A stretch of DNA of 6,182 nt from an uncultured Eubacteriales bacterium (GTDB lineage: Bacteria; Bacillota_A; Clostridia; Christensenellales; Aristaeellaceae). Location of the stretch: positions 1 to 6,182 of the forward strand of contig CADCQZ010000185.1 of the NCBI GenBank assembly GCA_902803675.1. The letters run 5' to 3'. Made by a program: the position numbers and the translations under genes. Positions 2,944 through 5,931 of this stretch are shown one piece after another (the stretch's first letter is position 1; each line of letters starts with the position of its first letter). The notes beneath the pieces were generated by a model that made no database searches, was not told the DNA's origin, and saw only the letters and a list, made by a program, of their open reading frames with translations.

Positions 2944-3005
2944 TCAAAAAAACGGTACTGAGACCCCAGATCTCACGGCAGTACATGATAAATACAAAAT
3001 ATCTA

Positions 3006-3033
3006 TTGACTTTATAGACATTAAAAGTATAAT
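3006..3033 (+). promoter_or_regulatory. sigma-A promoter of the met uptake operon
   Basis: TTGACT (3006-3011, 5 of 6 match) and TATAAT (3028-3033, perfect) are separated by 16 bases in an AT-rich stretch. Initiation is expected near 3040. That leaves a leader of about 200 bases before metN, long enough for an attenuator, and places the start only about 10 bases before the leader-peptide ribosome binding site. Confidence 0.85.
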
Positions 3034-3049
3034 GACTTTCAAACAGGCG

Positions 3050-3057
3050 AAAGGAGG
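3050..3057 (+). promoter_or_regulatory. ribosome binding site of the leader peptide
   Basis: AAAGGAGG lies 8 bases before GTG at 3066. It is stronger than the site in front of metN itself, which argues that the short frame is actively translated. Confidence 0.8.
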
Positions 3058-3065
3058 CGGGCGCA

Positions 3066-3128
3066 GTGACCGGAAGGACCATCGGGTGTTGTTGTTCCAT
3101 GTGTGTGTTTGCTGCGCTCACTTTGTAG
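3066..3128 (+). CDS. cysteine-rich leader peptide (putative attenuator peptide)
   Basis: The GTG start at 3066 opens a 20-codon frame ending in TAG at 3126-3128: MTGRTIGCCCSMCVFAALTL. Four of the 20 residues are Cys, all encoded by TGT (3087-3095 three in a row, and 3102-3104), with one Met between them. The frame sits directly after the promoter and a near-perfect ribosome binding site, and just before a hairpin with a T-run. This is the geometry of amino-acid-responsive leader peptides such as those of trp, his and leu. The likely role is as a sensor: ribosomes would pause at the Cys codons when charged tRNA-Cys is scarce. The peptide itself probably has no function. One caveat is that the DNA here is rich in TG repeats, so another frame also holds some Cys codons, but that frame has no start with a ribosome binding site downstream of the promoter. 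Confidence 0.7.
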   Translation: MTGRTIGCCCSMCVFAALTL

Positions 3129-3166
3129 CGGCCGCATGGTCTTATCAGCGGCTCCATACAGGCGGC
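3097..3166 (+). promoter_or_regulatory. alternative pairings of a putative cysteine attenuator
   Basis: Segment 1 (CCATGTG, 3097-3103, inside the Cys codon block) can pair with segment 2 (CGCATGG, 3133-3139) over 7 pairs including one G-U. Segment 2 with its 5' extension (GCCGCATGG, 3131-3139) can instead pair with segment 3: ATGG with CCAT (3154-3157), and GCCGC with GCGGC (3162-3166), with a 4-base bulge. The 2:3 form takes up part of the 5' arm of the terminator. A ribosome held at the Cys codons covers segment 1 and leaves 2 free to pair with 3. A ribosome at the stop codon covers segment 2, so the terminator can form. A local hairpin GCCGC/GCGGC (3131-3135 with 3148-3152) is a further option compatible with termination. 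All pairings were drawn by eye. Confidence 0.5.
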
Positions 3167-3189
3167 GCGGCAGGCGGGCCTGTTTTTTT
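3158..3189 (+). terminator. putative attenuator terminator upstream of metN
   Basis: ACAGGC (3158-3163) pairs with GCCTGT (3178-3183) over 6 bases around a 14-base GC-rich loop, and seven T residues follow (3183-3189). A shorter alternative stem, CAGG/CCTG at 3171-3182, ends at the same place. It lies after the leader peptide stop and 53 bases before metN, so it would cut off the operon unless disrupted. The stem is short with a large loop, so its strength is uncertain. A further small hairpin (GCCGG 3212-3216 with CCGGC 3221-3225) sits next to the metN ribosome binding site. Confidence 0.55.
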
Positions 3190-3242: not shown

Positions 3243-4268
3243 ATGATCCGGATCGATCACGCGGTCAAAACTTATAAGGACGGGAAGCAGGCGGTGCACG
3301 CTCTGCGGGACGTGAGCCTGCGGGTGGAAAAAGGCGATATCTACGGCATCGTCGGTTTTTCCGGGGCGGGCAAATCCACCCTGCTGCGGCTGGTGAACGG
3401 CCTGGAAAAGGCGGACAGCGGCACCGTCACCGTGGCGGGGCAGGACCTGAACGCGCTGAGCCCGAAGGAACTCCTTTTGATGCGCCGGAAGATCGGCATG
3501 GTGTTCCAGCAGTTCAACCTTCTGGAAGGGAAGACCGTGAAGTACAACGTGTCCGTCCCGCTCCTTCTGGCGGGCGCACCCAGGGGAGAGATCGACCGGC
3601 GGGTGAGAGAAGTGCTCAGCTTCGTGGAATTGGAGGACAAGGAGAACGCCTATGTCAGCCAGCTGTCCGGCGGGCAGAAACAGCGTGTGGGCATCGCCCG
3701 GGCCCTGGCCACCAAGCCTCAGGTCCTTCTGTGCGACGAAGCGACATCGGCCCTGGATCCCCAGACCACCGGATCCATCCTGCGTCTGCTCGAGCGGGTG
3801 AACCGCAGGATGGGGGTCACCATCCTGCTGATCACCCACCAGATGCAGGTGATCCAGATGATCTGCAACAAAGTGGCGGTGATGGAGCACGGAAAGATCG
3901 TGGAAGAGGGATCTGTTCTGGAGGTGTTCGGCACTCCGAAGGAAGAGGTGACCCGTCAGTTCGTGCGCACGGTGATCAGCGACCGGATCCCGGAAAAATT
4001 CGCTGCCGTGGTGCGTGCCGAGACCAGGAACCAGCGGGTGGAGCTGCTCAAGTTCATCGGCGATTCCGTAAAAGAGCCCCTGATCGCCGAGCTGTGCCGT
4101 ACGCAAGGGCTGGAGGTGAACATCCTGGGCGCGACGATCCGGGAGATGCAGGGCAGCGTGATGTGCGTGTTCATCCTTCAATTGATCGGGGATGACGCTT
4201 TGATCGACCGGGCGGAGGCAAGGATCGACGGGGCCGGGGCCCTCAGGGAAAGGATGGTGTTCGACTGA
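3243..4268 (+). CDS. metN: methionine-type uptake ABC transporter ATPase
   Basis: This 341-residue protein is close to the 343 of E. coli MetN. It would be the cytoplasmic ATPase of the D/L-methionine importer MetNIQ. The motifs are Walker A GFSGAGKST (38-46), Q-loop FQQFNLL (88-94), signature LSGGQKQR (141-148), Walker B VLLCDEATSALDP (161-173), and H-loop His199 in LLITHQM. A C-terminal region (about 262-340, with EPLIAELCRTQGLEVNILGA, then IREMQGS) matches the NIL domain, which in E. coli MetN binds methionine and inhibits transport. Feedback control is therefore possible. AAAGGA (3230-3235) lies 7 bases before the ATG. The stop overlaps the metI start by one base (TGATG). The operon is preceded by the putative Cys attenuator, so the substrate may be methionine, cysteine/cystine or a related sulfur compound. 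The family assignment is firm and the substrate is not. Confidence 0.95.
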   Translation: MIRIDHAVKTYKDGKQAVHALRDVSLRVEKGDIYGIVGFSGAGKSTLLRLVNGLEKADSGTVTVAGQDLNALSPKELLLMRRKIGMVFQQFNLLEGKTVKYNVSVPLLLAGAPRGEIDRRVREVLSFVELEDKENAYVSQLSGGQKQRVGIARALATKPQVLLCDEATSALDPQTTGSILRLLERVNRRMGVTILLITHQMQVIQMICNKVAVMEHGKIVEEGSVLEVFGTPKEEVTRQFVRTVISDRIPEKFAAVVRAETRNQRVELLKFIGDSVKEPLIAELCRTQGLEVNILGATIREMQGSVMCVFILQLIGDDALIDRAEARIDGAGALRERMVFD

Positions 4269-4957
4269 TGGAAGCATCCTGGCAGGCGCAGTTCAAAGAA
4301 TTCTTCGGCATCAGGTTCCCCAAGCTGCTTGAAAGCCTGGGGCAGACCGTCTACATGCTGGGCTGGGCTCTTCTCATCGGCGCGGTGATCGGCCTGATGC
4401 TGGCCCTTTTGCTGGTGCTGTGCCGCAAAGGCGGCCTCAGGCAGAACCGGGCGGTGTATGCCGCGGTGAACGTGTACGTGAATATCGTGCGCTCCATGCC
4501 CTTCATCATCACCCTGGTATTCGTGTTCCCTCTGACGCGGCTGATCGTGGGAAAGACCTACGGCTCCACCGCCATGCTGGTTCCCCTGGTGATCTACATC
4601 AGCCCGTACATGGCGCGCCTGATAGAGAACTCTCTCCTGGAGGTGAGCCCGGGCGTCATCGAGGCGGCCCAGGCCATGGGTGCCGACACATGGCAGATCG
4701 TCACCCGTTTCCTGCTGCCGGAAGCCCTGCCCTCCATCGTGCTGGCCCTGACCACCGGCACCGTGGGGCTTCTGGGCGCCACGGCCATGGCGGGGTACGT
4801 GGGCGGCGGCGGGGTGGGCGACCTGGCGCTGACTTACGGGTATCAGCGGTACAATTTCCCGCTGCTGATCCTGACCGTACTGATCCTGATCGTGTTCGTG
4901 CAGCTGCTGCAGCTGATCGGGAACCGCGTCAGCGGAAAACTGAGGCAGCACAGGTGA
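4268..4957 (+). CDS. metI: methionine-type uptake ABC transporter permease
   Basis: This 229-residue inner membrane permease (E. coli MetI has 217) is the partner of the ATPase encoded immediately upstream. About five membrane segments are visible: roughly 24-52, 70-92, 101-118, 153-178 and 198-218. The cytoplasmic coupling loop (EAA-type) is clear at 126-157: VSPGVIEAAQAMGAD, then a TRFLLPEALPSIV segment. The N-terminal NIVRSMPFIITL and the glycine-rich AGYVGGGGVGDLA (175-187) are hallmarks of this permease family. The ATG shares its A with the TGA stop of metN. AAAGGA at 4249-4254 is 13 bases upstream, so expression probably relies on coupling. A 76-base gap with a hairpin separates it from metQ. 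Confidence 0.95.
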   Translation: MEASWQAQFKEFFGIRFPKLLESLGQTVYMLGWALLIGAVIGLMLALLLVLCRKGGLRQNRAVYAAVNVYVNIVRSMPFIITLVFVFPLTRLIVGKTYGSTAMLVPLVIYISPYMARLIENSLLEVSPGVIEAAQAMGADTWQIVTRFLLPEALPSIVLALTTGTVGLLGATAMAGYVGGGGVGDLALTYGYQRYNFPLLILTVLILIVFVQLLQLIGNRVSGKLRQHR

Positions 4958-5033: not shown

Positions 5034-5849
5034 ATGAAAAAGCTGTTTTCCGTCCTGCTGGTCCTTTCCCTGGTGCTGGGCGCGGCCGGTGCCGCTCTCG
5101 GCGAAGACAAGACCCTGATCCGTTATTCCAAGTCCCAGGGCCCCTACACCGAGCTGTTCGAGGACGGCATCATCCCGATCCTTGAAAAACAGGGCTACAC
5201 CCTGGAAGTAGTGGAGGCCAGTGACCTTCTGGTGGCCGACAAGATGCTGGAGGCCGGCGATGTGGACGTGAACGTGGAGCAGCACACCGCCTATATCCAG
5301 ACGTTCTTCAACGCCAATAACGACGGCCACCTGGTGGGCATCAGCCCCATCCCCACCGTGCCCGCCGGGCTGTATTCCGCGAGGCACAAGAGCCTGGACG
5401 AAGTCGCCGACGGCATGACCGTGGCTGTGACCAATGATGCGTCCAATACCGCCCGGTGCCTATTGATCCTGCAGAAGATCGGCTGGATCACCTTCGACCC
5501 GGATGTGGATGTGACCACCGTGACCGTGGACGATATCGCGGAGAATCCCTATCATCTGGAGATCATCCAGGTGCTCAACACCACCATCCCCACCAGCCTG
5601 GAGGATTACGACTTCGGCCTGATCACCGGTTCCATCGTGTGGAACGCCCGGGAGATCGTGGATCCCGCCAGCGCCCTGGCCCAGGAGGATATCCTGCCCC
5701 ATCTGGTGCTGCAGGTGACCGTCAAGGAACAGGACAGGGACGCCGCGTGGGCAAAGGCCATCGTGGACGCCTATCATTCCGATGAGTTCAAGGCCTATAT
5801 GACCGAGAACAACACCGGCATGTGGTGGATCCCGGAGGAGCTGCGCTGA
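5034..5849 (+). CDS. metQ: NlpA/MetQ-family substrate-binding protein, apparently without lipid anchor
   Basis: This 271-residue protein captures the ligand outside the membrane for the MetNI transporter. Recognisable family features are RYSKSQGPYTELFED near the N-terminus, GDVDVNVEQHTAYIQTF (76-92), VPAGLYSARHKSLDEV (109-124), VAVTNDASNTARCLLILQKIG (130-150, with Arg141) and LEDYDFGLITGS (189-200). The signal peptide (MKKLFSVLLVLSLVLGAAGA, then ALG-ED) has no cysteine at all. Most MetQ proteins are lipoproteins with an L-x-x-C lipobox, so this one would be cut by signal peptidase I or remain tethered by its N-terminus. The motif usually read as 'N.AL..GelDaN' is also altered (ADKMLEAGDVDVN), suggesting a shifted ligand preference. 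GAGGAGA (5022-5028) precedes the ATG at 5034. It is the last gene of the operon. Confidence 0.92.
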   Translation: MKKLFSVLLVLSLVLGAAGAALGEDKTLIRYSKSQGPYTELFEDGIIPILEKQGYTLEVVEASDLLVADKMLEAGDVDVNVEQHTAYIQTFFNANNDGHLVGISPIPTVPAGLYSARHKSLDEVADGMTVAVTNDASNTARCLLILQKIGWITFDPDVDVTTVTVDDIAENPYHLEIIQVLNTTIPTSLEDYDFGLITGSIVWNAREIVDPASALAQEDILPHLVLQVTVKEQDRDAAWAKAIVDAYHSDEFKAYMTENNTGMWWIPEELR

Positions 5850-5867: not shown

Positions 5868-5899
5868 CAAGGGGCTGTTGCTTGCGCAGCAGCCCCTTG
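5868..5899 (+). terminator. strong hairpin at the 3' end of the met operon
   Basis: A 14-pair stem (5868-5881 with 5886-5899, one G-U pair) closes a TTGC tetraloop, and the arms include AAGGGGCTG and CAGCCCCTT. It is the strongest hairpin in the window and lies 18 bases after metQ. On the plus strand GC-rich sequence follows instead of a T-run. On the minus strand TTTAT follows, so it resembles an intrinsic terminator only in that direction. It probably marks the transcript end or acts as a stability element. Confidence 0.5.
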
Positions 5900-5931
5900 C
5901 CCGGGCCCGCCTCGTCTGCCGGATGAACGCG

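Follow-up and report, generated by a model that had tools for sequence, protein, structure and literature searches.

A probable cysteine-codon leader peptide and transcription attenuator upstream of metNIQ in Clostridia

Introduction

How is a metNIQ-type importer operon controlled when neither a T-box nor an S-box is visible in front of it? The question is raised by the window, a 6,182-nucleotide stretch of contig CADCQZ010000185.1 from an uncultured Eubacteriales bacterium of the Aristaeellaceae. In Clostridium perfringens, the supply of cysteine and methionine is read by T-boxes and S-boxes, and mccBA, cysKE and transporters of cyst(e)ine are under Cys T-boxes, according to excerpts of PMC2940859. 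For the window, the initial annotation had proposed a translated leader whose Cys codons make the operon answer to charged tRNA-Cys. Here, we compare this leader with those of related genomes and weigh the proposal against its alternatives.

Anatomy of the leader region

The arrangement described at 3006-3189 is confirmed. All of the parts described by the initial annotation were located there, namely, a promoter, a Shine-Dalgarno sequence, a Cys-rich frame of 20 codons and a hairpin with a T-run, in this order and with metN-metI-metQ downstream (Table 1). With the -10 box ending 32 bases ahead of the leader start codon and a Shine-Dalgarno sequence in between, the frame is not leaderless. The view that T-boxes and S-boxes are missing from the locus also held: Rfam gave no match within 3006-3189 at E ≤ 1, the three weak matches of the window all lying outside the leader, and neither RF00230 (T-box) nor a SAM riboswitch matched anywhere in the window at this threshold. 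Likewise, the 16 metN loci of the family gave no match to a T-box, a SAM riboswitch or any further Rfam family at E ≤ 0.01.

Table 1. Features of the leader region and the downstream operon in the window
Feature	Position	Strand	Basis
Candidate operator, an imperfect palindrome (TCTATTGACTTTATAGA) enclosing the -35 box	3002..3018	+	Place in sequence
Sigma-70-type promoter, TTGACT-16-TATAAT	3006..3033	+	11 of 12 consensus bases
Leader Shine-Dalgarno sequence AAAGGAGG	3050..3057	+	Sequence, conserved
Region 1, Shine-Dalgarno/start-codon strand, pairs with 3109-3124	3054..3069	+	Consensus fold of 12 leaders, covariation above shuffles; coordinates mapped by hand from alignment columns
Leader peptide frame VTGRTIGCCCSMCVFAALTL, 20 codons, GTG at 3066, TAG stop	3066..3128	+	
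Sensor codons TGT TGT TGT (3087-3095) and TGT (3102-3104)	3087..3104	+	
Region 2, frame end, alternative partner of region 1 and, through 3110-3118, of region 3	3109..3124	+	
Post-stop hairpin, arms 3131-3135 and 3148-3152	3131..3152	+	Consensus fold, covariation
Region 3, in the 5' side of the terminator, complementary to 3110-3118 (antiterminator)	3164..3172	+	
Intrinsic terminator, hairpin 3158-3183 and T7 3183-3189	3158..3189	+	
metN-type ATPase with NIL domain	3243..4268	+	PF00005 and PF09383 above gathering
metI-type permease	4268..4957	+	Best model MetI, below its cut-off
metQ/NlpA-type binding protein	5034..5849	+	PF03180; best model MetQ, below its cut-off

Within the window, the parts are ordinary. 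It contains one promoter (shuffle mean 1.0) and two terminators (shuffle mean 2.1), both counts within chance, and the fold of the leader RNA is only marginally more stable than that of its shuffles (z -1.28; 21 of 200 equal or better), the MFE of the whole leader being ordinary. Only the frame is odd, and the case depends on comparison. The nature of the importer is also less than certain. Methionine-importer models are the best NCBIfam matches of MetN, MetI and MetQ, but all three proteins fall below the curated cut-offs (353.9 bits against 499.7 for metN and TIGR02314), so that methionine is uncertain as the substrate; the cargo would be cyst(e)ine itself or one of its precursors, for example methionine.

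Two observations concern the distal part of the operon. Read by eye, the N-terminus of the binding protein (5034-5110) is signal-peptide-like and has no lipobox Cys, as is also the case in the binding proteins of L174 and L198; the absence of this residue is unusual for a Gram-positive MetQ. A strong inverted repeat (AAGGGGCTGTTGCTTGCGCAGCAGCCCCTTG) 3' of metQ at 5869-5900 is likely the operon terminator, and the Rfam matches at this place (BjrC68, sucA-II) were below cut-off.

Conservation of the leader upstream of metN

A MetI search of genome contigs yielded 28 loci, close (L001-L014) or distant (L015-L028). Two more, L058 and L059, were added from a search of 200 family genomes, 14 of which had a match at 1e-110. 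L001-L014, L058 and L059 make up the 16 family relatives; the genomes of L001 and L009 also occur in a larger draw of 300 family genomes. Wider MetN searches, with five to seven candidates scored per genome, gave close relatives in 2 of 391 (E ≤ 1e-95), 6 of 299 (1e-98) and 1 of 297 (1e-110).

In 15 of the 16 family relatives, metN is preceded by a Shine-Dalgarno-led leader that has three or more Cys codons, and 14 of them have three Cys within six codons; in L059, the four Cys are more spread out. All 15 leaders have a promoter-like pair upstream (9-12 of 12 consensus bases, in a scan run without shuffle control). Compared across the relatives, as the initial annotation had suggested, the leader frame retains its Cys codons while much of the surrounding sequence drifts, with a single loss. 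This is L001, which retains the promoter, RNA similarity, terminator and operon; it scores 100 bits against the covariance model of the leader, of which it is one of the building sequences. With the Cys frame gone from its leader region (L001:3799-3944), the L001 operon might be always attenuated or bypassed. Frames of this kind are rare elsewhere: 11 distinct Shine-Dalgarno-led peptides with three Cys in six codons were judged by eye to be non-leaders in 1.62 Mb strand-bases (overlapping loci included), or about 0.002 per 300 bases, and a T-run accompanies three of the 11.

Seven of the 14 distant loci also have a Cys leader (L015, L017, L019, L020, L021, L023 and L027), two of them in Actinobacteria. 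The leader of L021 has only two Cys, and the one counted for L015 lies before L076, the first metN of the cluster. No convincing Cys leader was seen in the DNA examined of L016, L018, L022, L024, L025, L026, L028 and L060. In L078 and L079, the Cys leader is ahead of a peptidase-like gene (read by eye) that precedes metN. Such leaders are contained in records of the cultured Clostridium fessum, Enterocloster alcoholdehydrogenati and Georgenia satyanarayanai.

In the Enterocloster cluster (L015/L076), two nearby metN genes on one contig follow a single Cys leader, and a peptidase-like gene (by eye) is ahead of the second metN. The L076 leader contains CTCCCGGAC, which exactly matches GTCCGGGAG of the terminator arm. 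L017, a record with Alistipes in its title, has a leader similar to the one in L020, which is titled as a Bacillota MAG; a binning error is possible.

Codon choice and methionine content

Leader Cys codons are predominantly TGT (53 of 61 in the 16 family leaders, the window included), versus 5 of 43 in metN of L001-L014, where TGC accounts for the other 38 (Fisher 4e-15). In the window, TGT is used at four of four leader Cys codons and TGC at six of six in metNIQ. The rarer codon would raise the sensitivity of the sensor.

The leaders are rich in methionine as well. Across 34 leaders, chosen without close copies, Met accounts for 12.3% of the non-start residues, compared with 1.9% in long ORFs and 3.0% in 1059 background small ORFs, and it is the commonest residue before Cys runs (46 cases; next commonest residue, 11). 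Mixed leaders may sense both tRNAs.

A second, paralogous metN, about 47% identical, is present in 13 of the 14 genomes (15 loci). The 350 bases upstream of these genes contain no Cys-run leader, and the only related frames there are a Met-rich one in L043 and one with two Cys in L054. However, wider scans revealed Met/Cys-rich leaders for five of the 15 (L043, L051, L052, L053 and L174, the last upstream of paralogous locus L049), so the paralogues were rejected as a negative control; the upstream DNA of L045, L055 and L057 is short or missing. The second-MetNIQ leaders found are Met-richer and mostly contain Cys, with the exception of the L043 leader, where five internal Met stand without any Cys.

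RNA structure and predicted switching

RNAalifold places 12 leaders in a consensus fold of three helices: the Shine-Dalgarno/start strand with the end of the frame (regions 1 and 2), the post-stop hairpin and the terminator. Two-sided changes occur in 10 of its 28 pairs (shuffle mean 4.7, one of 500 shuffles as high) and none of 500 shuffles reached its covariation score, both for a structure derived from the same alignment rows on which it was tested. The terminator helix has two-sided changes in three of eight pairs, and a hairpin adjoining a T-run of at least four T follows the leader stop in 22 of 22 leaders and in all 16 further ones. As to the competing helix, 83.9% of cells pair between 3110-3118 and 3164-3172 in the 12 close leaders, versus 27-69% in slid versions. 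The helix of regions 2 and 3 has no two-sided pair changes in these leaders, and its covariation is not above shuffles. Its duplex energy is reached by at most 10 of 200 shuffles in L007, L008, L012, L013, L020, L027 and L076 and is not unusual in the remaining 15 of 22 loci.

To model the ribosome, which was assumed to cover 13 bases beyond its A site, only RNA downstream of it was folded. This scheme was chosen after the result of a first mask model, in which upstream RNA was allowed to pair downstream; the latter gave mixed or reversed results in seven loci and was replaced. In the window, the modelled terminator probability is 0.00 as long as the A site holds Cys 8, 9 or 10; it is 0.90 for the fourth Cys (Cys 13) and 0.77 once the stop is reached. 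L008, L009 and L076 follow the same pattern, L012 does so partly, and L059 is also part-clear. Without a ribosome, the probability is 0.00 in the window and 0.00-0.06 in the set of the window, L002, L004 and L076; these predicted folds do not fit a leader that is off by default. Since the ribosome-free fold of the window disfavours the terminator, our confidence in the attenuator reading is slightly reduced.

Against controls in which the exposed stretch was shuffled, the equilibrium switch of the window alone is within chance (37 of 200 equal or better). The corresponding numbers are 0 for L076, 1 for L009 and L012, 2 for L003 and L059, 3 for L008 and 6 for L007, whereas the switch difference is below 0.1 in 10 of 22 loci (L004, L010, L011, L013, L014, L017, L019, L020, L021 and L027). 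For 16 further leaders, the combined Fisher P is 0.056. An arm-occupation test, which asks whether the 5' arm of the terminator is occupied before the 3' arm is made, was devised after this weak P value. In it, 3 of 100 shuffles do as well as the window, 8 of 38 loci reach P ≤ 0.05, and the Fisher values are 1.8e-6 over 38 loci and 2e-5 over the 33 left when close copies are removed; the pooled values are optimistic because the loci are related. Taken as models, the pooled tests favour switching, with several loci lacking it.

Attenuation and its alternatives

We consider the leader probably a ribosome-controlled (trp-type) transcription attenuator that senses charged tRNA-Cys, on the basis of its anatomy, its conservation, its codon bias, the complementarity of its regions and the switching that some of the loci show in silico. 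The comparison, wholly computational, supports this mechanism; from it we infer that the leader is translated, that ribosomes stall, that transcription terminates and that cysteine is responded to, so that the operon would answer to charged tRNA-Cys. RNA polymerase would start at about 3040, judging from the promoter, and a ribosome would follow on the leader frame. With ample Cys-tRNA, it would pass the TGT codons, reach the stop and cover region 2, upon which the terminator would form and metNIQ would be off. With scarce Cys-tRNA, it would stall on the Cys run, leaving region 2 free to pair with region 3; no terminator would then form and metNIQ would be made. For RNA that is not translated, the conserved helix of regions 1 and 2 suggests termination, with which the equilibrium fold of the window (terminator 0.00) disagrees.

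Such a Cys-tRNA sensor might act on translation or via Rho rather than through the intrinsic terminator. Excerpts of PMC1262725 describe mycobacterial Cys leaders without conserved terminators, and an excerpt of PMC13236596 cites translation attenuation for cysteine genes of M. smegmatis; many terminators in our set also seem too strong for equilibrium switching. However, the hairpin and T-run behind the stop of every one of the 22 and 16 leaders, the two-sided changes in the terminator helix and the distance of 82-177 bases from leader stop to metN start (22 leaders), too far for simple coupling, make this mode of action improbable. It is more doubtful still that the frame is untranslated and its Cys run incidental to a conserved structured RNA. 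Parts of the frame (TTTGCTGCGCTC) are indeed conserved as RNA and lie in conserved helices, but the Shine-Dalgarno sequence and frame are retained across lineages with differing RNA sequence, and Cys is kept through TGT/TGC changes (L006, L008, L011) and in varied patterns. Short Cys-rich peptides can bind metals, and the product itself could in principle function in metal or thiol binding or as a RiPP precursor. This we find scarcely credible, given that distant leaders share little except Cys and Met (by eye), that terminators follow the leaders and that no RiPP enzyme is among the few downstream genes inspected.

A different matter is which amino acid is read. That methionine is sensed as well as, or more than, cysteine is suggested by the enrichment of Met in the leaders and before Cys runs, by the Met-rich leaders of the paralogous metN genes and by the methionine-dependent annotation of metL of Streptomyces lividans in excerpts of PMC8079986. 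On the other hand, Cys outnumbers internal Met four to one in the window leader and is written with the rarer TGT, while Met, having a single codon, gives no codon-choice test. We regard the sensing of methionine, alongside cysteine or ahead of it, as rather unlikely. Trp-type attenuation by Cys-tRNA could also be part of a broader scheme, which we propose tentatively for part of the sulfur amino-acid regulon in this lineage of gut-type Clostridia: leaders would read both Cys- and Met-tRNA, their codon mix would set a response to cysteine, to methionine or to the two together, Cys-rich and Met-richer leaders would distinguish the MetNIQ paralogues, and leaders would be found in the position that Cys T-boxes occupy in other clostridia, with T-boxes serving other genes of the same cells.

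T-boxes are indeed common in these genomes. All 14 (G001-G014) have a T-box over the Rfam cut-off. Among 11 cysS loci over cut-off (three genomes have none), two, L115 and L117, have a T-box upstream, that of L115 below the gathering score; the assignment to cysS is by position upstream. The specifier of these T-boxes (L115:602-804, L117:552-769) was read as UGC (Cys), and the same genomes have Cys leaders.

Relation to known leader peptides

With the trp, his and leu attenuators, the leaders described here share a promoter, a Shine-Dalgarno sequence, a short frame that carries sensor codons and a biosynthesis or uptake operon, together with a predicted competition between antiterminator and terminator. 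They differ in that the sensor is Cys (with Met in many), an importer would be controlled and the lineage is rich in T-boxes. Polycysteine sORF attenuators of mycobacteria reportedly respond to cysteine, as the title of Canestrari et al. 2020 has it. Mycobacterial and actinobacterial Cys leaders have in common with ours a short frame with a Cys run before sulfur genes and, by title, the cysteine response. However, they are leaderless or terminator-free and precede cys/cbs operons, whereas ours are Shine-Dalgarno-led, have an intrinsic terminator and are found before metNIQ and other genes. The lack of terminators in Actinobacteria is described in excerpts of PMC1262725, and the mycobacterial polycysteine sORFs are known to us via parts of PMC13236596 and PMC9094748.

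The nearest precedent is metL of S. lividans, a leader peptide before metNIQ that is annotated as methionine-dependent and ends in CMCRRMC, with both Cys and Met codons (PMC8079986, in part). In contrast to the leader of the window, metL is leaderless, has no clear terminator in the excerpts available, is interpreted by its methionines and threonines and belongs to another phylum; it may also read cysteine. The initial annotation named no described case before metNIQ in Clostridia, and no Cys leader from Clostridia was found among the open-access papers in the ranked and capped lists; a leader peptide before metNIQ as such is on record, in S. lividans. The uORFC-8-2 motif before cysS in Rhodobacterales, predicted only according to excerpts of PMC8632094, likewise combines tandem Cys codons with a terminator but differs in gene, phylum and RNA.

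Within the same phylum, translated leaders have replaced T-box-type control for other amino acids and genes. A Leu-rich leader peptide is said to occur in S. aureus, and His leaders precede hisS/hisZ in bacilli, the latter according to excerpts of PMC2965389. The Cys T-boxes of C. perfringens follow the same logic as the leaders here, in that uncharged tRNA-Cys blocks termination at genes of the same kind (mccBA and transporters of cyst(e)ine), but the tRNA binds the RNA directly and no translated frame is involved (PMC2940859, in part). By analogy, the leader peptides appear to stand in the role of these T-boxes. If so, Cys/Met leaders beside T-boxes would be a second way to read the same tRNA, leader codons would predict the cargo of MetNIQ-type importers, and Clostridia would be linked with the Cys leaders of Actinobacteria.

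A wider set of Cys leaders

The initial annotation presented the Cys attenuator before metNIQ as a single case. The reading as such is supported, but the leader is not isolated: it is one of several Cys or Cys/Met leaders before sulfur-linked genes of the family, which together look like a regulon. At E ≤ 0.01, a covariance model built from 12 leaders had matches in 43 of the 300 genomes drawn from the family, with many of the weak matches being plain terminators. Members were collected by inspection of the better matches and by a sensitive search of 19 genomes, and their genes were named from Pfam hits that pass the gathering threshold and NCBIfam hits that fall short of their cut-offs. Cys leaders precede cystathionine gamma-lyase-type genes in L143 and L144, with a cysteine-synthase-like frame next in L144 (by eye); the two genomes (G106, G198) are outside the 14 that carry this MetN. 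In L150 and L194, the leader lies ahead of a LysR regulator, with PLP-enzyme-like genes next in L150 (by eye), and in L174 it lies ahead of MetQ of a second MetNIQ. The gene behind the leader encodes a family-3 amino-acid binding protein in L175, L182 and L198 (a cystine-binding model being among the matches of the last two), an SsuA/NMT1-type binding protein in L197 and a family-5 oligopeptide-type binding protein in L181. Leaders with Cys or Cys/Met are also found in L185 and L186, the contig of the latter ending before any gene. No leader accompanies the RNA-model matches L145-L149, L151, L162, L163, L165-L167 and, by judgement, L164, nor, on a script scan only, L152-L159. The same holds for 15 of 20 further regions; the other five are L185, L186, L194, L197 and L198.

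Some leader promoters have a further feature. The palindrome CCTAYT-N5-ARTAGG coincides with the -35 box; of 38 leader promoters, 6 have no more than one mismatch to it (shuffle mean 0.02) and 11 no more than two (shuffle mean 0.27), in a partly circular test, as the consensus was read off some of the same promoters. The copy in the window has three mismatches, with 7 of 100 shuffles as good. The palindrome presumably resembles an Rrf2/CymR-type operator and could be bound by an Rrf2/CymR-like or other repressor, possibly as a second layer of control.
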